Assembly: GCA_002841455.1 (NCBI GenBank)
Contig: PGZT01000001.1
Coordinates: 79,919-137,921 of the forward strand
DNA from: Firmicutes bacterium HGW-Firmicutes-21
GTDB lineage: Bacteria; Bacillota; Clostridia; Oscillospirales; CAG-382
Reading direction: 5' to 3'
Length of the DNA stretch: 58,003 nt
The first letter of the stretch is position 1; each line of letters begins with the position of its first letter. The notes under the pieces were generated by a model. The model did no database searches. It was not told the DNA's origin and saw only the letters and a program-made list of their open reading frames with translations. The position numbers were made by a program, and so were the translations under genes. This document shows positions 20,132 through 30,713 of this stretch, one piece after another.

Positions 20132-22234
20132 CTATACAGAATAAAGAATCTCGCCGTATGTGGGGAAGGGCCAGTACTTGGCTCCCACGAGTGTCTCAAG
20201 CTCATCTGCCGTGGCACGGAACTCCTGCATCTCGGCAAGAACCGTTTCCTTGTAGAACATTGCGTGTGCTGCTGTGTTACCGTTCTTATCGCCTGCCGAG
20301 ATAAGTGTTTTTTCTAACAAATCCGCCTTTTTAAACAATATGGAGGCAAGCCTGCCAAGCTTCTCCGCAAGTGCGACCTCGCTGTCGTCGGAAATATCTA
20401 TTCCTATCTCCTTTTTAGCTTTTGCCGCTCCCGCAAGCATCTTTCCGTATTCATAAACTGCGGGAAGAATGTCCTTGCGAACCATATCAAGCATTGTAAG
20501 CGCCTCTATGCTGATTACCTTGCAATAATTCTCGAGCAGCAGCTCGCAGCGGGAATGAATCTCAGCCTCGGTGAAAATCTTGTGCTTTGTAAACAGCTTG
20601 ATATTCTTCTCGCTGACAAAGTACGGGAGTGCCTCCGGTGTGCTCTTGAGGTTGAGCAACCCGCGTTGCTTTGCTTCAGCAACCCACTCTTTTGCATAAT
20701 TGTTGCCGTTGAAGATAATCCTTTTATGCTTAATAACGGTCTCCTTGATAAGAGCATCGACTTCCTTATTAAAATCGGATGCTTTTTCAAGACGATCGGC
20801 AAACTCGGACAGAGCCTCCGCAACTATGGTGTTGAGTATTATGTTCGGACCCGATACAGAAAAGGTCGAGCCGAGCATACGGAACTCGAATTTATTCCCC
20901 GTAAAAGCAAAGGGAGAGGTGCGGTTTCGGTCGGTGGTGTCCTTTTTAAAGTCGGGAAGAACATGGATTCCCGTCTGCATTGTATTAGCCTTGGTACAGT
21001 TATATTCGCAGCCCTTCTCTATTGAATCGAGTATTGAGGTCAACTCGTCTCCCAGGAATATGGACACGATTGCGGGAGGAGCCTCGTTAGCGCCGAGACG
21101 GTGGTCGTTACCCGCACTCGCAACGGAGATACGGAGCAAATCCTGATGCTCGTCGACCGCTTTTATAACAGCCGCAAGGAAGAGCATAAACCGTTTATTC
21201 TCTATCGGGTTTTTACCCGGCTTAAACAGATTTACACCGGTATTTGTGGCAAGCGACCAATTGTTATGCTTGCCGCTTCCGTTTACTCCGGCAAAGGGCT
21301 TCTCATGAAGCAGACACGCCATACCGTGCCGCTCGGCGACCTTTTTCATCATCTCCATGGTGAGCTGATTATGGTCGGTGGCAATGTTTGCGGTTGTATA
21401 AATAGGCGCAAGCTCGTGCTGTGCGGGAGCAACCTCGTTATGCTCGGTTTTTGCGAGTATTCCTATCTTCCACAGCTCCTTGTTAAGGTCCTGCATAAAC
21501 GCCATTACTCTGGGTCTTATTGAGCCGAAATAATGGTCCTCAAGCTCCTGTCCCTTGGGCGGCTTTGCGCCGAAAAGGGTTCTGCCCGAGAAACGGAGGT
21601 CCTTACGCTTGAGATAGCAACCCCTGTCGACAAGGAAGTATTCCTGCTCCGGACCGACCTCGGAGGTTACATGTGTTACAGCACTGTCTCCGAACAATTG
21701 CAAGACACGGCACGCTTGAGTGCTTATAACCTCCATAGAGCGGAGAAGGGGCATCTTTTTATCCAGAACCTCGCCGCTGTAGGAGCAGAAAATTGTGGGT
21801 ATGCATAGAGAGTTATCCTTTATAAACGCATATGAGGTAGGATCCCATGCGGTATAGCCTCTTGCTTCAAAGGTAGCTCTTAAGCCGCCGGAGGGGAAGG
21901 AGGAAGCATCCGGCTCGCCTTTTATCAGCTCTTTTCCGGAGAACTCCATAATAACCTTGCCGTCAGCCTGCGGAGATATAAAGCAGTCGTGCTTCTCGGC
22001 GGTAATGCCGGTCATGGGCTGGAACCAATGTGTATAATGAGTTACGCCTTTTTCGAGAGCCCAATCCTTCATCGCGGTTGCTACACTGTTAGCAACGGTG
22101 ATATCAAGATCGTTACCCTCCTCTATTGTTTTTTTGAGTGATCTGTATATTTCCTTAGGCAGCTTCTCTTTCATAACAGAGTCGCTGAAAACAAGTGAGC
22201 CGTAGATCTCCGGCACTTTCGAGTCGTTAATCAA
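20132..22234 (-). CDS. glnN: Glutamine synthetase type III
   Basis: 700-aa [51 protein letters not shown]. Confidence 0.97.
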
Positions 22235-22270: not shown

Positions 22271-23284
22271 TTATAAAAGTTCGATACCGGCGGCGGAACA
22301 AATACTCTTTGTCTCGCTGTCCCAAATGGATACCTGAACCTCGCCTATATGAGCTTTTCCGAGCAGCAGCATACAGAACCTCGATTGTCCGATTCCGCCG
22401 CCTATAGAGAGCGGAAGAGTTCCGTCCAATAACAGGCTGTGGAACATCATGCTCTTTCTGTCCTCCGCACCCGCTGCGGCGAGCTGTGTCTCAAGTGAAG
22501 CGCTGTCAACACGGATACCCATCGAGGAAACCTCAAAAGCCATGCCGAGCAGCTCGTTCCAGAATATTATATCACCGTTGAGTTCCCAATCGTCGTAATC
22601 GGGAGCGCGGCCGTCGTGCTTAATGCCGGACTTGAGCTTTCCGCCTATCTTCATTACAAAAACCGTTTTATGTATTTTTGTGTAAGCGTCTTCTCTCTCT
22701 CTCGGGGTGAGGTCGGGATACATATCCTCAAGCTCCTGTGTGGTTACAAAGCTGACCTGATCAGACATCTCTGTGGTAAGCTGCGGAAAGAGCTGCTTAA
22801 TGTAAGCGTTTGTGTCGCACATAGCCTTGACTTCACTGCGGACAATTTCCTTCAGGAAATCAATATTCCGTTGCTGTGCGGTGATAACCTTTTCCCAGTC
22901 CCACTGATCCACATATATGGAATGCAGATTGTCCATAATCTCGTCTCTGCGGATTGCGTTCATGTCCGTATAAAGACCCTCGCTCACCGGGAAACCGTAT
23001 TTATACAGTGCATAACGCTTCCATTTTGCAAGCGAGTGAACAACCGCTCCGTCGGTTTTGGCATCGGCTATATCAAACGACACCGCGCGTTCCGTACCGT
23101 TAAGGTCATCATTCAAACCGGTTGCAGGCTCTACGAACAGCGGAGCCGAAACTCTCTTTATGTTCAGAGCCGCACTCAGCTTATCCTCGAAGCTTCTTTT
23201 AATTATACCGATTGCCATCTGTGTTTCGTAAAGGGACAAAACAGGTTTGTAATCTTTTGGAATAAGAGTTTTGCTCATTTTCAT
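22271..23284 (-). CDS. asnA: Aspartate--ammonia ligase
   Basis: MSKTLIPKDYKPVLSLYETQMAIGIIK..., GIRVD, GGGIGQSRFCMLLLGK; start chosen at MKMSKTL downstream of the ORF start. Confidence 0.95.
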   Translation of the reverse strand: MKMSKTLIPKDYKPVLSLYETQMAIGIIKRSFEDKLSAALNIKRVSAPLFVEPATGLNDDLNGTERAVSFDIADAKTDGAVVHSLAKWKRYALYKYGFPVSEGLYTDMNAIRRDEIMDNLHSIYVDQWDWEKVITAQQRNIDFLKEIVRSEVKAMCDTNAYIKQLFPQLTTEMSDQVSFVTTQELEDMYPDLTPREREDAYTKIHKTVFVMKIGGKLKSGIKHDGRAPDYDDWELNGDIIFWNELLGMAFEVSSMGIRVDSASLETQLAAAGAEDRKSMMFHSLLLDGTLPLSIGGGIGQSRFCMLLLGKAHIGEVQVSIWDSETKSICSAAGIELL

Positions 23285-23312: not shown

Positions 23313-23353
23313 GCAAAAGCACTGCGGGCAAGAATTTCCCACAGCGCCTTTGC
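23313..23353 (-). terminator. Terminator-like attenuator hairpin in the asnA leader
   Basis: Minus strand GCAAAGGCGCUGUGGG-aaauucuug-CCCGCAGUGCUUUUGC, 16 pairs including 3 GU, followed by UAUUUUAUUAUU. Confidence 0.75.
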
Positions 23354-23356
23354 TGT
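23341..23356 (-). promoter_or_regulatory. Candidate ANTAR-target hairpin in the asnA leader (hexaloop AAAGGC)
   Basis: Minus strand ACAGC-[AAAGGC]-GCUGU; overlaps the terminator 5' strand. Confidence 0.6.
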
Positions 23357-23365
23357 ATGCAAGGT

Positions 23366-23394
23366 ATTATAAACCTTTTTTTTTACCTTGTCAA
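23366..23394 (-). promoter_or_regulatory. Consensus SigA promoter of asnA-glnN
   Basis: Minus strand TTGACA-17-TATAAT. Confidence 0.85.
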
Positions 23395-23444: not shown

Positions 23445-23473
23445 TTGACAAAATACATTTTTGTTTGTATAAT
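23445..23473 (+). promoter_or_regulatory. Consensus SigA promoter of the glutamate synthase cluster
   Basis: TTGACA-17-TATAAT. Confidence 0.88.
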
Positions 23474-23475
23474 GC

Positions 23476-23498
23476 TGTTAGGACAAAGGTGTCTGACA
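23476..23498 (+). promoter_or_regulatory. Candidate ANTAR-target hairpin in the glt leader (hexaloop AAAGGT)
   Basis: TGTTAG(g)AC-[AAAGGT]-GTCTGACA; overlaps the terminator 5' strand. Confidence 0.55.
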
Positions 23499-23549
23499 TA
23501 TTAACGCAGAGGGCTATATATTTGTGTTATCATGTCAGGCACCTTTTTT
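23485..23549 (+). terminator. Attenuator-type terminator hairpin in the glt leader
   Basis: AAAGGTGTCTGACAT ... ATGTCAGGCACCTTT followed by T-run; inner TAACGCA/TGTGTTA stem. Confidence 0.8.
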
Positions 23550-23577
23550 ATTCAATTATAATATAGGAGATATAAAT

Positions 23578-24684
23578 ATGTTAAGAGAAGGAACGAACGG
23601 ATACAGAATACCTGCCGGCTGCGCTATCTCGGGTATTTTTTCCAAGGAAGGTAAGCGTATCAGCGGCGAAAACATTATTAAATCCATCGGACTTATGCAC
23701 GAGCGTTCAAACGGCTTGGGCGGCGGATTTGCCGGATACGGAATTTATCCGGAATACAAGGACCTGTACGCATTCCATATATTTTATGATAATTTTAAAG
23801 CAAAGGACGAGTGCGAGCATTTTCTGGACCGTCATTTTGATATTGTAAATCTGTCAAAGATACCCACAAAAAAGATACAATCGATAACCAACGAGCCTCT
23901 TATATGGCGTTATTTTGTAAAGCCGTTGCCGACCAAGCTCGCAGACAGTCAGCTTGACGAGGACGAGTTCACAGCCCGTTCGGTTATCAAGGTTAATGTT
24001 AAGATAGAAGGAGCTTATATATTCTCAAGCGGAAAGAACATGGGCGTTTTTAAAGCGGTCGGTTATCCGGAGGATGTCGGCGAATTTTATAAATTGGATC
24101 AGTACGAGGGATATTGCTGGACCGCACACGGCAGGTATCCGACAAACACGCCGGGCTGGTGGGGCGGAGCCCATCCCTTCGCCCTGCTCGGCCTATCTAT
24201 AGTGCATAACGGCGAGATTTCTTCTTATGACGCAAACCGTCGATTTATCGAGATGTTTGGATATAACTGTACATTGCTGACCGATACGGAGGTTATTACA
24301 TATATTATAGATTATCTGTGCCGCAAGCAGGGATTAACAATAAAGGAAGCCGCCGAGGTCATTGCCGCTCCGTTCTGGAAGACAATCGACAAAAAGGACG
24401 AGAAGGACAGGGAGAGGCTGACCTATCTTCGCAACACCTTTGCGAGCCTGCTGATAACAGGACCTTTTTCTATACTTGTCGGCTTTGACGGCGGAATAAT
24501 GGCTCTTAATGACAGGCTCAAGCTGCGCTCTATGGTTGTAGGCGAAAAGGATGATACCGTGTACATTGCGAGCGAGGAAAGCGCCATCCGACTTATAGAG
24601 CCTAATCTTGACAGAGTTTTTGCTCCCAAGGGCGGCGAGCCGGTTATATACACCTTTAACGAGCGAATTAATTCCGAAAGATAA
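23578..24684 (+). CDS. Class II glutamine amidotransferase (GltB N-terminal domain protein of split glutamate synthase)
   Basis: CAISGIFSKEG, HERSNGLGGGFAGYG, AHGRYPTNTPGWWGGAHPFALLGLSIVHNGEISSYDANRR. Confidence 0.93.
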   Translation: MLREGTNGYRIPAGCAISGIFSKEGKRISGENIIKSIGLMHERSNGLGGGFAGYGIYPEYKDLYAFHIFYDNFKAKDECEHFLDRHFDIVNLSKIPTKKIQSITNEPLIWRYFVKPLPTKLADSQLDEDEFTARSVIKVNVKIEGAYIFSSGKNMGVFKAVGYPEDVGEFYKLDQYEGYCWTAHGRYPTNTPGWWGGAHPFALLGLSIVHNGEISSYDANRRFIEMFGYNCTLLTDTEVITYIIDYLCRKQGLTIKEAAEVIAAPFWKTIDKKDEKDRERLTYLRNTFASLLITGPFSILVGFDGGIMALNDRLKLRSMVVGEKDDTVYIASEESAIRLIEPNLDRVFAPKGGEPVIYTFNERINSER

Positions 24685-24821: not shown

Positions 24822-26327
24822 ATGTCAATTGATTTTATATATCCCGAATACGAAATAGCGAGAAACAAAGATCGCTGTATAAACTGCCGTGTCTGCGAGA
24901 AACAATGCGCAAACGAGGTACATAAATACCACGCAGACCTAAAAATGATGCAGGCTGACGACCTTAAATGCGTCAACTGTCAGCGTTGTGTATCGTTATG
25001 CCCTACAAGAGCGTTAAAGATTGTAAAAACGGATAATACATATAAGGAAAACGCTCATTGGAAGGGACGCACCATGTCCGAGATTTATCTTCAGGCAGGA
25101 AGCGGCGGCGTTTTGCTTTCCTCGATGGGAAACCCTGTCGATTACCCTATTTACTGGGATAAAATACTTATAAACGCCTCACAGGTAACAAACCCCTCCA
25201 TTGACCCGCTCAGAGAGCCTATGGAGACCAGAACCTTTCTCGGACAACGCCCTAACAAAATCGAGAGAGACAAGGACGGCAACATTGTAAACAATATGGC
25301 TCCTCAGCTGGAGCTGTCCACACCGATTATGTTCTCCGCAATGTCCTACGGCTCAATCAGCTACAACGCACACGAGAGTCTTGCGAGAGCGGCTACGGAG
25401 CTGGGCATATATTATAACACGGGAGAGGGCGGACTCCACGAGGATTTCTACAAATACGGAGCAAACACAATTGTTCAGGTAGCTTCGGGACGGTTCGGCG
25501 TACATAAGGATTACCTAAACGCAGGAGCCGCCGTCGAGATAAAAATGGGACAGGGTGCAAAGCCGGGTATCGGCGGACACCTGCCGGGCGCTAAAATTGT
25601 GGGTGATGTGTCAAGGACCAGAATGATACCCGAGGGGTCCGACGCAATTTCACCCGCTCCTCATCACGATATTTATTCCATCGAGGATTTACATCAGCTT
25701 GTAATGTCGCTTAAAGAGGCGACCAATTATACAAAACCCGTTATCGTAAAGATAGCGGCGGTGCATAATGTTGCAGCGATTGCGTCGGGAATAGCCCGCA
25801 GCGGAGCGGATATTATATCGCTCGACGGCTTCAGAGGCGGAACAGGTGCCGCTCCGACAAGAATCAGAGACAATGTGGGTATTCCGATAGAGCTTGCGCT
25901 GGCAAGCGTTGATAAGCGGCTTCGTGACGAGGGAATAAGGAACAATGTGTCGCTTGTTGTGGGCGGCTCGGTAAGAAGCAGCGCGGATGTCGTAAAGGCG
26001 ATTGCTCTTGGTGCGGATGCGGTTTATGTTGCGACCAGCGCATTGCTTGCTCTCGGTTGTCATCTTTGCAGGAGTTGCCACGGCGGTAAATGCAACTGGG
26101 GAATAGCAACACAACGGGCTGATTTGGTAAAAAGACTTAACCCGGAAATAGGATATAAACGGCTTGTCAACCTTGTCGAGGCTTGGACACATGAGATAAA
26201 GGAAATGATGGGCGGTATGGGCATTAACTCAATCGAAGCCCTGAAGGGCAACAGGCTTATGCTCAGAGGCGTGGGGCTTAACGAGAAGGAGCTCGAAATC
26301 TTAGGCATCTATCACGCAGGGCAATAA
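24822..26327 (+). CDS. Glutamate synthase FMN-domain protein with N-terminal ferredoxin domain
   Basis: CINCRVCEKQC / CVNCQRCVSLCP clusters; PMFSAMSYGSIS-type GltB core, GFRGGTGAAPTRIRDNVGIPIELAL, CHLCRSCHGGKCNWGIATQ. Confidence 0.94.
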   Translation: MSIDFIYPEYEIARNKDRCINCRVCEKQCANEVHKYHADLKMMQADDLKCVNCQRCVSLCPTRALKIVKTDNTYKENAHWKGRTMSEIYLQAGSGGVLLSSMGNPVDYPIYWDKILINASQVTNPSIDPLREPMETRTFLGQRPNKIERDKDGNIVNNMAPQLELSTPIMFSAMSYGSISYNAHESLARAATELGIYYNTGEGGLHEDFYKYGANTIVQVASGRFGVHKDYLNAGAAVEIKMGQGAKPGIGGHLPGAKIVGDVSRTRMIPEGSDAISPAPHHDIYSIEDLHQLVMSLKEATNYTKPVIVKIAAVHNVAAIASGIARSGADIISLDGFRGGTGAAPTRIRDNVGIPIELALASVDKRLRDEGIRNNVSLVVGGSVRSSADVVKAIALGADAVYVATSALLALGCHLCRSCHGGKCNWGIATQRADLVKRLNPEIGYKRLVNLVEAWTHEIKEMMGGMGINSIEALKGNRLMLRGVGLNEKELEILGIYHAGQ

Positions 26328-26376: not shown

Positions 26377-26838
26377 TTGATGAAACGAATTATAGTAAAC
26401 GAAAAATGGTGCTTGGGCTGCCGCCTATGCGAATATAACTGTGCTTTCGCAAATTCTGGGAGCATCGGTACGACACCGCTCGATATGGCAAAAGCGCTTA
26501 AGGATATTGTAATAAACCCCCGAATTAAGATAGAAGAAAAGGACGACATCTGCTTTGCGGTATCCTGCCGACATTGCAAGGAGCCTCTCTGCGTCAAGAG
26601 CTGTATAACGGGTGCGCTGACAAGGGTTGACGGCGTTATCCGCATAAACAAAGAGAAATGCGTCGAGTGCCACACCTGTGTGCTCGTATGCCCCTACGGC
26701 GCAATTATGCCGAGCGACGAGGGTGTTATGCAGAAATGCGAGCTTTGTGTACAGAACACGGGAGGAGAGCCGTTCTGCGTTAAGGGCTGTCCGAACAAGG
26801 CGATTGAATTTAAAGAACTTGGAGGGGATTCGGTATGA
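26377..26838 (+). CDS. 4Fe-4S ferredoxin-type electron transfer protein
   Basis: Multiple CxxCxxxC motifs (CLGCRLCEYNC, CRHCKEPLCVKSC, CVECHTCVLVCPYG). Confidence 0.92.
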   Translation: MMKRIIVNEKWCLGCRLCEYNCAFANSGSIGTTPLDMAKALKDIVINPRIKIEEKDDICFAVSCRHCKEPLCVKSCITGALTRVDGVIRINKEKCVECHTCVLVCPYGAIMPSDEGVMQKCELCVQNTGGEPFCVKGCPNKAIEFKELGGDSV

Positions 26839-28082
26839 AATATGTGATTATAGGTAACTCGGCGGCGGCAATAGGCTGCATTGAGGGTATAAGAAGCGTT
26901 GATTCTCAAGGGAGCATTACCGTTATCTCAAAGGAAACACAGCATACATATTCCCGTCCGCTCATATCCTATCTTCTGCTTGGTAAAACCGATTCGGAAA
27001 GAATGAAATACCGAAGCGATAATTTTTATGAAGAAAACAACTGTACCGTAATGTTCGGTACGGAGGTAACAAAAATATCTCCCGATAAAAAAGAGGTTCT
27101 GCTCGATAACGGAAAAAGCGTGAAGTACGATAAGCTGCTTGTCGCAACGGGCTCAAACCCCTTTGTTCCCCCGATAGAGGGAGTAAGCACCGCAAAAAGC
27201 GTACATACTTTTATGTCGCTCGACGATGCGCTTGCTCTGGAAAAGGATTTGACGCCGGACAGCAGGGTAATTATTCTCGGCGGCGGACTTATCGGTCTGA
27301 AATGTGCGGAGGGAATTCTTAAATCCGTTAAAAAGATTACCGTTATTGATATGGCTGACAGGATTCTGCCAAGCATACTCGATTCCGAGGGCTCTTCGAT
27401 AATACAAAAGCACCTTGAATCCAAGGGTATAGAGTTTCTGCTCGGAAACAGCATTTCCAAGGTTGACGGACAGAGAGCGATTCTAAAAAGCGGAGATATA
27501 ATCGAGTTCGACAGCCTTGTAATCGCCGTCGGAGTACGGGCGAATACCGCACTTGTGGCGGAGGCGGGCGGAACAGTAAACAGGGGAATTTACACTGATT
27601 TGAGCTGTAAAACAAGCCTTCACGACATATATTCGGCGGGTGACTGCAGCGAGAGCTACGACATTACCATAGGGCAGCCGAGAGTGCTTGCGCTTTTGCC
27701 TAACGCATATATGCAGGGCGAGGTTGCCGGAGTAAATATGGCAGGCGGAGATATGCTTTATGACCACGCCATACCTATGAATGCCATCGGTTTCTTTGGG
27801 CTGCATGTTATATCGGCGGGCAGCTACGAGGGTGAGTGCTACACCGTAGCAGAGGGAAACAACTATAAGAAGCTGTTTTACAACGACAATAACCTTTTCG
27901 GATATATTCTAATCGGAGAGGTTGCGAGAGCGGGTATTTATACGGCTCTGATTCGTGAGAAAACACCTCTCGACAGCATAGATTTTGAGCTTATCAAGGA
28001 TAAGCCGCAGCTTATGGCCTTTACAAAAAAGGACAGGGCGGCGCTGCTTATAAAGGAAGCTCTGCCAGACAATTGGCAATAA
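26835..28082 (+). CDS. NAD(P)/FAD-dependent oxidoreductase (GltD/NirB-like)
   Basis: VIIGNSAAAIGCIEGIR, ATGSNPFVPPIEG, VIILGGGLIGLKCAE, YSAGDC; overlaps the upstream gene by 4 nt. Confidence 0.93.
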   Translation: MKYVIIGNSAAAIGCIEGIRSVDSQGSITVISKETQHTYSRPLISYLLLGKTDSERMKYRSDNFYEENNCTVMFGTEVTKISPDKKEVLLDNGKSVKYDKLLVATGSNPFVPPIEGVSTAKSVHTFMSLDDALALEKDLTPDSRVIILGGGLIGLKCAEGILKSVKKITVIDMADRILPSILDSEGSSIIQKHLESKGIEFLLGNSISKVDGQRAILKSGDIIEFDSLVIAVGVRANTALVAEAGGTVNRGIYTDLSCKTSLHDIYSAGDCSESYDITIGQPRVLALLPNAYMQGEVAGVNMAGGDMLYDHAIPMNAIGFFGLHVISAGSYEGECYTVAEGNNYKKLFYNDNNLFGYILIGEVARAGIYTALIREKTPLDSIDFELIKDKPQLMAFTKKDRAALLIKEALPDNWQ

Positions 28083-28107
28083 ATAATAAGTATAAGGGAT
28101 TGGTATT

Positions 28108-28755
28108 ATGGAAAGAAACTGTATGGGCGAAAGGTATCTGGGCTGCGGCAGTGCGGGAGAGAGGATTATCCTCAACGGAACCCCCGGCAACGCACTCGGC
28201 GCATATCTTGACGGCTCGGAAATAATAATAAACGGAAACGCACAGGACGCTACGGGCGATACCATGAACGGCGGAAGCATAACCATCCACGGCAGCACCG
28301 GGGATGCTTGCGGTTATGCGATGCGCGGCGGCGAGATTTATGTCAGAGACAGTGCGGGCTACCGTGCCGGTATCCATATGAAGGCATATAAAGAGAAGCT
28401 GCCGGTGCTTGTAATCGGCGGCAGAGCGGGCAGCTTCCTCGGCGAATATCAGGCGGGCGGAATTATCATCGTACTCGGACTCGGCTTTGAGGGCAAGAGC
28501 GTGGTGGGATATTTTTGCGGAACGGGTATGCACGGAGGCAAGATTTATCTCCGCACAGAGGAGATGCCGCAGGACCTTCCCGAGCAGGTTATGGTCCGTC
28601 TTGCCACGGAAGAGGATATGAAGGATATCGACAGATATATTACAAGCTATTCGGAAAAGTTCGGGGTAAATAAAGAGGATATAACAAGCAGCGGCTTCTA
28701 TGTCTTGACTCCAAACACAAAAAATCCTTACAAAAGGCTTTACTGTTATAATTAA
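28108..28755 (+). CDS. GltB C-terminal (GXGXG) domain protein of split glutamate synthase
   Basis: Beta-helix repeats GTPGNALGAYLDGSEIIINGNAQDATGDTMNGGSITIHGSTGDACGYAMRGGEIYVRDSAG. Confidence 0.93.
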   Translation: MERNCMGERYLGCGSAGERIILNGTPGNALGAYLDGSEIIINGNAQDATGDTMNGGSITIHGSTGDACGYAMRGGEIYVRDSAGYRAGIHMKAYKEKLPVLVIGGRAGSFLGEYQAGGIIIVLGLGFEGKSVVGYFCGTGMHGGKIYLRTEEMPQDLPEQVMVRLATEEDMKDIDRYITSYSEKFGVNKEDITSSGFYVLTPNTKNPYKRLYCYN

Positions 28756-28761
28756 TTGGTG

Positions 28762-28767
28762 TATAAT
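28762..28767 (+). promoter_or_regulatory. Predicted -10 box upstream of glnA (GSI)
   Basis: TATAAT with TTTACT 17 bp upstream. Confidence 0.55.
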
Positions 28768-28773
28768 AGCAGT

Positions 28774-28805
28774 GTTATGAGGGTTATAAAGGTTAAACCC
28801 TTAAC
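28774..28805 (+). promoter_or_regulatory. Candidate ANTAR-target-like hairpin in the glnA leader (AAAGGU in apical loop)
   Basis: GTTA-tg-AGGGTT-[AT-AAAGGT-TA]-AACCCT-TAAC, starting at predicted +1. Confidence 0.45.
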
Positions 28806-28838
28806 AAGCCGTTTCGCCGGCGAGAAACGGCTTTGTTT
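28806..28838 (+). terminator. Terminator/attenuator hairpin upstream of glnA
   Basis: AAGCCGTTTC-gccggcga-GAAACGGCTT followed by TGTTTT. Confidence 0.8.
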
Positions 28839-28878
28839 TACATTGTGTATTTTACAACCGGAGAAACGGACGAGGCAT

Positions 28879-30114
28879 ATGTTTTACACCGATAATGAGG
28901 TAATTGATTTTATAACGGAGAACGATGTTAAGTTTATCCGTCTTTCTTATTGCGATATTTACGGAGTACAAAAGAATATATCAATTATGCCGTCGGAGCT
29001 TAGACGAGCGTTCAGGGACGGAATATCCTTCGACGCTTCGGCTGTACGGGGCTTTGGCGACGAGGTAAGGTCGGATTTATTGCTGTTCCCCGATCCGTCG
29101 ACCCTCGCTCTTTTACCCTGGAGACCGTCACACGGCAGAGTTGTGCGGTTTTTTTGTGATATAAAGCATCCCGACGGCAGAACCTTTGAGATGGACAGCC
29201 GTCATATATTGAAAAAGGCGGTCCGCTATGCGGCGGGCAGGGGTTATACGGTCAGCTTCGGTGCGGAATGTGAGTTTTATCTTTTCAAGTGCGATGCGGA
29301 GGGAAACCCCACCGACATTCCCTTTGACAACGCCGGGTATATGGATGTTTCCCCGCTTGACAAGGGCGAGAATGTAAGACGGGAGATCTGTCTTACGCTT
29401 GAGGAAATGGGTATTATCCCCGAGGCCTCTCATCACGAGGAGGGACCCGGACAAAATGAGATTGATTTCAGATACAGCGAGCCGCTTGTCTCCGCCGATA
29501 ATGTTACAACCTTTAAGTGGGTTGTGAAAACGGTTGCGGCGAGAAACGGACTGTTTGCCACCTTTGACCCTAAACCGATTCCGGACAAGAGCGGAAACGG
29601 CTTCCATATAAATATGGCTCCCAAGCTAATCGGCGGAGTAACCGAGCAGGCTGTGTATGACAGCTTCATGGCGGGTGTTCTCGACCGTGCGGCGGAGCTA
29701 TGTGCTTTTCTTAACCCGACAGAGGCATCCTTCCTCCGTTTGGGAGAGAATAAAGCACCCAAATATATTACCTGGTCCGAGCAGAACCGCTCACAGCTGA
29801 TAAGAATACCTGCCGGAGACGGCGAATACAAGCGTATCGAGCTGCGTTCTCCCGATTGCAGAACCAATCACTATATCGCATATGCATTGCTTATATATGC
29901 GGGCATGGAAGGCATTGAGAATAAAAAAGTCCCACCCGTTCCGATTGACCTAAATCTTTACAAAGCGGATAAGGAGATTATAGATAAGCTAAGCAAGCTG
30001 CCCGAGAGTCTTTCCGAGGCTGTCGAGATAGCCTGCCGCAGCGAATTCATCGGCAGAGTGCTGCCCAAGCGGGTAGCCGAGGCGTATAATCCGCTTTACG
30101 AGAAGCAGGAATAG
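28879..30114 (+). CDS. glnA: Glutamine synthetase type I
   Basis: FGAECEFYLFKCDAEG, ASHHEEGPGQNEIDFRY, NGFHINMAPKL; internal ATG 28879 chosen as the MFYTDNEV start. Confidence 0.95.
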   Translation: MFYTDNEVIDFITENDVKFIRLSYCDIYGVQKNISIMPSELRRAFRDGISFDASAVRGFGDEVRSDLLLFPDPSTLALLPWRPSHGRVVRFFCDIKHPDGRTFEMDSRHILKKAVRYAAGRGYTVSFGAECEFYLFKCDAEGNPTDIPFDNAGYMDVSPLDKGENVRREICLTLEEMGIIPEASHHEEGPGQNEIDFRYSEPLVSADNVTTFKWVVKTVAARNGLFATFDPKPIPDKSGNGFHINMAPKLIGGVTEQAVYDSFMAGVLDRAAELCAFLNPTEASFLRLGENKAPKYITWSEQNRSQLIRIPAGDGEYKRIELRSPDCRTNHYIAYALLIYAGMEGIENKKVPPVPIDLNLYKADKEIIDKLSKLPESLSEAVEIACRSEFIGRVLPKRVAEAYNPLYEKQE

Positions 30115-30125
30115 GGGGCGTTGGT

Positions 30126-30713
30126 ATGTTGTTCGGTAAAACGCCGTACAGCGTGCTGGTCGTTTCGAGCGGAGAAAAAATTAACGATTTTCTAAACGAG
30201 GTTCTTGGGTCAAATATGTACTCGCCCGTCATATTCACAAAAAACGGGGGGGAGGCAAGAAACATTCTTATATCACAGAGCTTTGACCTTGTTATAATAA
30301 ACTCCCCTCTTAGTGATGAATTCGGCAGCGAGCTTGCCTTTAAGCTCACCGAAAATGCGGTATGCGGTGTAATAATGATTATAAAAAGCGATGTGTTCGA
30401 CGAGGTCAGCGAACGGGTTGAGCAATACGGAGTTCTTGCGGTGAGCAAGCCGATTTCCCGTGTGCTTTTCTTGCAGATTCTGAAAATATCCATCGCTACT
30501 CTCGAGCGGTTGAAAAGGCTTGAGCGGGAAAATAAAAAGTTATCGTTTAAAATAGAGGAAATAAGGCTTATTGACAGAGCAAAATGGGTTCTTATAGAGT
30601 ATCTGAAAATGAGCGAGCCGCAAGCGCACCGATATATCGAAAAACAGGCTATGGATATGCGGATAACACGGCGTGAGGTTGCCGAGAGCATTATAAAAAC
30701 ATATGAAAATTAG
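30126..30713 (+). CDS. Response regulator-like protein with C-terminal ANTAR RNA-binding domain
   Basis: Receiver-like N-terminus, coiled coil, C-terminal IEEIRLIDRAKWVLIEYLKMSEPQAHRYIEKQAMDMRITRREVAESII. Confidence 0.93.
   Translation: MLFGKTPYSVLVVSSGEKINDFLNEVLGSNMYSPVIFTKNGGEARNILISQSFDLVIINSPLSDEFGSELAFKLTENAVCGVIMIIKSDVFDEVSERVEQYGVLAVSKPISRVLFLQILKISIATLERLKRLERENKKLSFKIEEIRLIDRAKWVLIEYLKMSEPQAHRYIEKQAMDMRITRREVAESIIKTYEN

Follow-up and report, generated by a model that had tools for sequence, protein, structure and literature searches.

The characterised targets of ANTAR antitermination carry two hairpins, P1 and P2, and for EutV both hairpins and a fixed linker are required: antitermination is lost when P1 is deleted or the linker is made longer (PMC3369931, PMC8934654). 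In the eut targets of Enterococcus faecalis (Ramesh et al. 2012, PMC3369931), which lie at nitrogen-related genes, each hexaloop has A at position 1 and G at position 4 (A1/G4) and is closed by a short stem, and the loop and 3' half of P2 form the 5' arm of a terminator. Walshe et al. (2022) identified one hexaloop as the minimal binding unit of EutV in vitro and predicted natural single-hexaloop sites, expected where no terminator race exists; P1 was still needed for antitermination, and the role of natural single hexaloops was left open (PMC8934654). In Pseudomonas aeruginosa, AmiR combines a pseudo-receiver with an ANTAR antiterminator and is signalled through binding of its ligand-binding partner AmiC rather than through phosphate; its amiE target was also described by Ramesh et al. 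as having two hairpins.

ANTAR-type control has also been connected with nitrogen assimilation. Dual-hairpin matches at the glutamate synthase and other nitrogen genes of Desulfotomaculum (Ramesh et al. 2012, PMC3369931) indicate a nitrogen regulon like the one proposed here, but a two-hairpin model by design does not describe single-hairpin leaders. For Clostridium acetobutylicum, NitR was proposed as an antiterminator in the control of ammonia assimilation (Fierro-Monti, Reid and Woods 1992, cited in PMC4676874); unlike the present case, the published description involves an antisense RNA at the gene for glutamine synthetase, and as far as the citing paper shows no single-hexaloop leader was defined in it. 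RNA-seq of C. thermocellum revealed that the glt cluster, including its ANTAR gene, changes together with an unlinked glutamine synthetase gene, and an antiterminator role for this ANTAR gene was proposed by the authors (PMC4676874).

The leader analysed here, upstream of a glutamate synthase (glt) cluster, shares with the eut targets the A1/G4 hexaloop on a short stem, the re-use of the loop and 3' half in a terminator, and the nitrogen-related target genes. Unlike them, it contains only the P2 equivalent, which starts at about +1. Judging from its sequence, we read it as a promoter-proximal, ANTAR-type transcription attenuator with a single, 5'-terminal recognition hairpin and no P1, at a probability of about 77%. 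In the open-access literature searched, neither a single-hexaloop ANTAR attenuator nor an association of ANTAR with type III glutamine synthetase (GSIII) was described; Table S2 of Ramesh et al. could list some loci under the dual model.

The glt and asnA leaders

The window, that is, the whole 58-kb stretch of DNA that was analysed, belongs to a 1.55-Mb draft genome (MAG) related to uncultured Clostridia. On its forward strand the glt leader runs from promoter through hairpin, terminator, U run and Shine-Dalgarno sequence to the ATG at 23578 of a split glutamate synthase cluster, and direct re-reading recovered the promoter, the AAAGGU hairpin, the overlapping 15-pair terminator and the U-tract of the initial annotation. 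The promoter (23445–23473) consists of TTGACA at 23445–23450, a 17-nt spacer and TATAAT at 23468–23473. A transcription start at 23480 is predicted from the spacing to the -10 box, and the modal stem start among relatives also coincides with +1. The candidate antiterminator hairpin, which resembles an ANTAR P2, follows at 23481–23494, with GGAC (23481–23484) and GUCU (23491–23494) flanking the A1/G4 hexaloop AAAGGU (23485–23490). Its loop and 3' strand are re-used in the 5' arm of the intrinsic terminator, which fold and covariation predict at 23485–23549, U run included. The terminator arms, AAAGGUGUCUGACAU (23485–23499) and AUGUCAGGCACCUUU (23532–23546), form 15 pairs and are capped by an inner 9-bp stem (23502–23510/23521–23529), and a ribosome-binding site, AGGAG, lies at 23565–23569.

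For the RNA beginning at 23480, the terminator fold reached -32.9 kcal/mol (z = -8.5 relative to shuffles). When the growing transcript was folded, the 5' hairpin persisted in most transcripts until about 56 nt, after which the structure switched to the terminator. In the glt copy RNAfold favours a 5-bp stem with an AAGG tetraloop, because A1 of the loop can pair with U6; most relatives have C at position 6, and pairing between positions 1 and 6 is impossible there. It had been cautioned that a start at exactly 23480 would leave only four base pairs of the stem in the transcript, and that a longer stem with a bulged G needs an upstream start. The start does remain a prediction, and the bulged 8-bp stem from 23475 does require an earlier one, but neither poses a problem: stems span 4–7 bp in most relatives and 3–4 bp in the sister species, and a 4-bp stem at the predicted +1 is a normal length among these leaders. 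The bulged alternative was rejected as unnecessary for the same reason.

The back-to-back asnA leader on the reverse strand repeats this architecture, as had been claimed. Its promoter (23366–23394) combines TTGACA at 23394–23389 and TATAAT at 23371–23366 with the same 17-nt spacing. Within 23313–23357, a hairpin with strands UACAGC and GCUGUG and the loop AAAGGC (23351–23346) overlaps a 17-pair terminator, which extends to 23313 and is followed by a U-rich tract. The asnA loop sequence, AGCAAAGGCGCUG, is close to the eut 13-mer AGCAANGRRGCUY (PMC3369931). The leader precedes asnA, encoding aspartate–ammonia ligase (22271–23278, reverse strand; Pfam AsnA, 7.7e-103), and downstream of it the GSIII gene (20132–22234, reverse strand; Pfam GSIII_N, 1.3e-81).

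Both leaders stand out in the window and in the genome. A composite scan of both strands of the 58 kb, requiring an A..G.. hexaloop, a stem of at least 4 bp and an overlapping terminator, returned only these two sites, compared with none in six dinucleotide shuffles and one in total for 11 other loop patterns. Similarly, a covariance model built from the leaders of relatives and run on the whole MAG retrieved exactly the glt and asnA leaders (asnA, E = 6.8e-6), with no other match below E = 4. Among known Rfam cis-regulators (T-box, PyrR, glutamine riboswitch and others), none reached its gathering cut-off in the window; weak PyrR-like scores under relaxed thresholds, the best at 27.1 bits against a cut-off of 54, were judged to be chance.

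The proposal that the two leaders form a coordinated divergent attenuator pair is supported by relatives: among 59 gltB leaders with enough upstream sequence, a matching unit on the opposite strand was present at 45 and none was found at 14. The gene divergent from gltB in these genomes is usually that for GSIII, and such a placement would couple glutamate synthase to glutamine synthetase.

Conservation and covariation among relatives

The regions upstream of 102 gltB orthologues were collected, comprising 22 genomes from the window's own order and 80 named genomes. In a promoter-anchored test, designed to avoid selecting for the expected answer, the best consensus promoter of each region was chosen first, and a G4-hexaloop hairpin was then sought in the following 4–20 nt. 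Such a hairpin was found in 60 of 84 cases; 200 shuffles gave 2.4 on average and 7 at most. Loops with any base other than G at position 4 amounted to seven in total. Position 1 was A in 57 of the 60 leaders, and the stem began 5–9 nt past the -10 box in 48 of them, with a mode of 6 nt that corresponds to +1. Overlapping terminators, defined by a strand further downstream that can pair with the loop and 3' arm and is followed by a T run, occurred in 56 of the 60 (2.3 in shuffles). Three gltB leaders have G1 loops (GAAGGC, GATGGT and GATGGC) within 300 nt upstream of the gene and keep G4; as far as these otherwise typical leaders can be read, A1 is not strictly required.

Covariation was assessed in an alignment of 34 leaders. 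The hairpin is paired in 87% of alignment cells, with two-sided changes in 55 cells, and the terminator in 94%, with such changes in 124; this set was picked by a scanner demanding both structures, so that its pairing arises partly by construction, unlike that in the promoter-anchored tests. In the number of paired cells, in two-sided changes and in covariation score, both helices surpassed all shuffles and all slid versions, and the two covarying helices are mutually exclusive. In the sister species, AAAGGU/ACCUUU is replaced by AAAGAU/AUCUUU.

These patterns bear on a reading in which a transcription factor uses the inverted repeat at +1 as its operator in the DNA, with the terminator there by coincidence. 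A repressor could well act at a site overlapping positions +1 to +15; nevertheless, we regard this as extremely improbable, given that the loop is asymmetric and conserved (AAAGGC), that a distal 3' strand 40–70 nt downstream covaries with the same bases, and that second copies in tandem lie apart from promoters and each have a terminator of their own.

The missing P1 hairpin

Between +1 and the P2 equivalent, neither leader in the window contains a P1, and with transcription starting, as predicted, at the base of the hairpin there would be no room for one. Three other features by which Ramesh et al. (2012) recognise ANTAR targets are present, namely an A1/G4 hexaloop with a stem of at least 3 bp, overlap of P2 with a terminator and an ANTAR gene in the genome; what differs is the lack of two tandem hexaloop hairpins with a short linker. 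Across 210 non-eut (nitrogen) units, P1-like matches were detected at 11, near chance (shuffle mean 5.6, maximum 10), and several of the 11 fall inside the promoter. Loci around EutV-like genes from the same class served as a positive control, and there a P1 hexaloop was located 4–10 nt upstream of P2 in four of four eut-type attenuators. A second hexaloop within the terminator loop was sought by reading, and none was consistent across relatives. Lack of P1 is typical of the whole group and no peculiarity of the glt locus, a point that goes beyond the initial annotation, and the single hexaloops overlapping a predicted terminator are a departure from known ANTAR targets.

These loci could nonetheless be canonical dual-hairpin targets, with an unrecognised P1 transcribed from a second promoter further upstream. 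This would agree with the characterised targets, which carry both P1 and P2 (PMC3369931, PMC8934654), and with the longer 5' regions of a few leaders (L147, L158 and L138). We consider it very unlikely, as the scan that detects P1 in all four eut units places P1-like hexaloops upstream of the nitrogen units at chance level, most leaders have a strong consensus promoter at a near-fixed distance from the hairpin, and the upstream space is shared with the divergent promoter. Alternatively, P1 might be supplied in trans, with one ANTAR dimer bridging the hexaloops of two divergent nascent transcripts. Divergent pairing is indeed common (45/59), and in the EutV crystal one dimer holds two hexaloops from different RNA molecules (PMC8934654). 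Against this stand the 14 gltB leaders at which no partner unit was found and the many solitary units, such as those at amtB, asnB, purF and gltA; moreover, Walshe et al. judged trans contacts unlikely on the transcription time scale (PMC8934654), and we give this bridging arrangement only a slim chance.

With the single-hairpin attenuator as the preferred reading, these leaders would put the role of natural single hexaloops, left open by the two-hairpin model (PMC8934654), to a direct test: here natural single sites, class-wide and at the predicted +1, overlap a terminator. If the ANTAR protein is of the EutV kind, one hairpin might be too weak, given the need of EutV for two. Leaders of this design are likely to escape searches modelled on two hairpins.

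The ANTAR protein and its proposed regulon and switch

The glt leader is followed on the forward strand by genes for a gltB-type class-II glutamine amidotransferase subunit of glutamate synthase (23578–24684; Pfam GATase_2) and for the FMN/Fe-S subunit (24822–26327; Pfam Glu_synthase, 2.7e-142). The rest of the cluster (26377–30114), as assigned by Pfam, encodes an Fe-S protein, a pyridine nucleotide oxidoreductase, a GXGXG subunit and a type I glutamine synthetase. Next to these lies the gene of a pseudo-receiver/ANTAR protein, the proposed regulator (30126–30713, forward strand; Pfam ANTAR, 1.6e-17), whose ANTAR domain scores 63.5 bits against a curated cut-off of 27.3. A genome-wide search found it to be the sole ANTAR gene of the MAG. 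In many relatives, too, the ANTAR gene belongs to the same cluster, about 5–7 kb downstream of gltB. Adjacency of glnA and the ANTAR gene was considered as a clue to the signal; it holds in the window, but glnA lies near the ANTAR gene in only three of the named loci, and the clue was set aside.

The modelled protein comprises a receiver, a long helix and an ANTAR bundle. Its closest structural match is RNA-bound EutV (6ww6_B, TM 0.78), and it also matches the fold of AmiR (1qo0). Of the residues with which EutV binds RNA, Met172 is retained as M176, which is invariant, and Lys143 and Lys147 have the likewise basic R147 and R151 as counterparts; among the other hexaloop contacts, H168 replaces Tyr164, and Arg142 is not kept (I146). 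EutV is phosphorylated, with an acceptor Asp and an acidic pocket in its type of receiver, whereas the present protein has Asn59 at the phospho-acceptor position and Ser14-Ser15 in place of the acidic pair. Phosphorylation is therefore an unlikely input. In the manner of AmiR, nitrogen status is probably signalled through the binding of a protein or metabolite rather than by a kinase; AmiR has AmiC as its partner, and none is evident here. Asn occupies the acceptor position in most homologues, and the degenerate pseudo-receiver is conserved in most of them.

The suggested link between the leaders and ANTAR proteins is supported by the position of the gene within the glt cluster and by co-occurrence of motif and gene. 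Among 60 relatives, 18 of 22 motif-carrying genomes had an ANTAR gene (p = 4e-4, shared ancestry ignored); among 196 genomes of the class, the gene was present in 35 of 37 with the motif compared with 65 of 159 without it (Fisher p = 5e-10, uncorrected for ancestry). Many of the genomes compared are drafts. Convincing leaders were nevertheless found in three draft genomes with no ANTAR gene by Pfam, G030 (L040), G041 (L197) and G097 (L239), where either the gene is missing from the assembly or a different regulator operates; G101 likewise carries the motif with no ANTAR gene found. G011 and G053, at first candidates for the same group, gave model matches in which the scanner saw no hexaloop hairpin and were treated as chance terminators. 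Conversely, an ANTAR gene without a hexaloop unit by our criteria was seen in about 12 of the 59 named glt clusters for which long downstream sequence was available, some of them showing a unit on looser inspection.

Leaders in genomes without a detected ANTAR gene are what one would expect if the hairpin were held by a factor other than ANTAR, whether a small molecule, as in terminator-embedded riboswitches of the guanidine-IV or HMP-PP types, or another RNA-binding protein. We judge this decidedly unlikely: A1/G4 loops with a conserved C-G closing pair fit the ANTAR consensus, motif and ANTAR gene co-occur strongly, no Rfam family reaches threshold, and a 4-bp hairpin with a 6-nt loop would make a poor ligand pocket.

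The targets in relatives are mostly nitrogen genes, with gltB, GSIII and asnA identified by BLAST to the window proteins and the others, asnB, glnA, amtB, full-length gltA and gdhA together with some purF, purB and purC, read from translated starts. A few units precede genes of no obvious nitrogen role. In four cases (L196, L197, L237 and L242), a hexaloop-terminator unit lies before an apparent purF, purB, purC and purB gene, respectively, identified by reading the sequence, which suggests that purine synthesis may be part of the regulon in some species.

In the switch that we infer, with respect to start site, ANTAR binding, termination in vivo, polarity and signal alike, RNA polymerase would start at about 23480 and the nascent RNA would open with the short A1/G4 hexaloop hairpin. 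With nothing bound, the loop and 3' strand would re-pair with 23532–23546 to form the terminator, releasing an RNA of about 60–70 nt. Active ANTAR protein would instead bind the hexaloop and keep the hairpin closed, allowing read-through into gltB and the rest of the cluster, and the asnA-GSIII operon would be switched likewise from the opposite strand. Positive feedback is to be expected in this circuit, since the ANTAR gene itself follows the leader on which its product is proposed to act. A hexaloop that emerges first, together with the long terminator loop of several glt leaders, may buy the time that P1 gives EutV.

Extended to Clostridia and some Spirochaetes, the proposal is that pseudo-receiver ANTAR proteins run nitrogen regulons through single-hexaloop attenuators at +1 and need no recruitment hairpin, P1 being replaced by the 5'-end position, aided in some of the leaders by a long terminator loop. 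We consider this broader proposal reasonably probable. It would point to a candidate system of nitrogen control in many Clostridia, one that would act on glutamate synthase, glutamine synthetase, ammonium uptake and asparagine synthesis and, in certain species, on purine genes as well.

Two further observations concern the distribution of these units. Tandem attenuators, the second without its own promoter, occur in ten leaders before GSIII, amtB and other genes. In addition, gltB leaders of the same design were found in Spirochaetes, two in Sphaerochaeta (L170, L179) and two in Treponema and relatives (L174, L181), which suggests that the cluster and its leader were transferred together.
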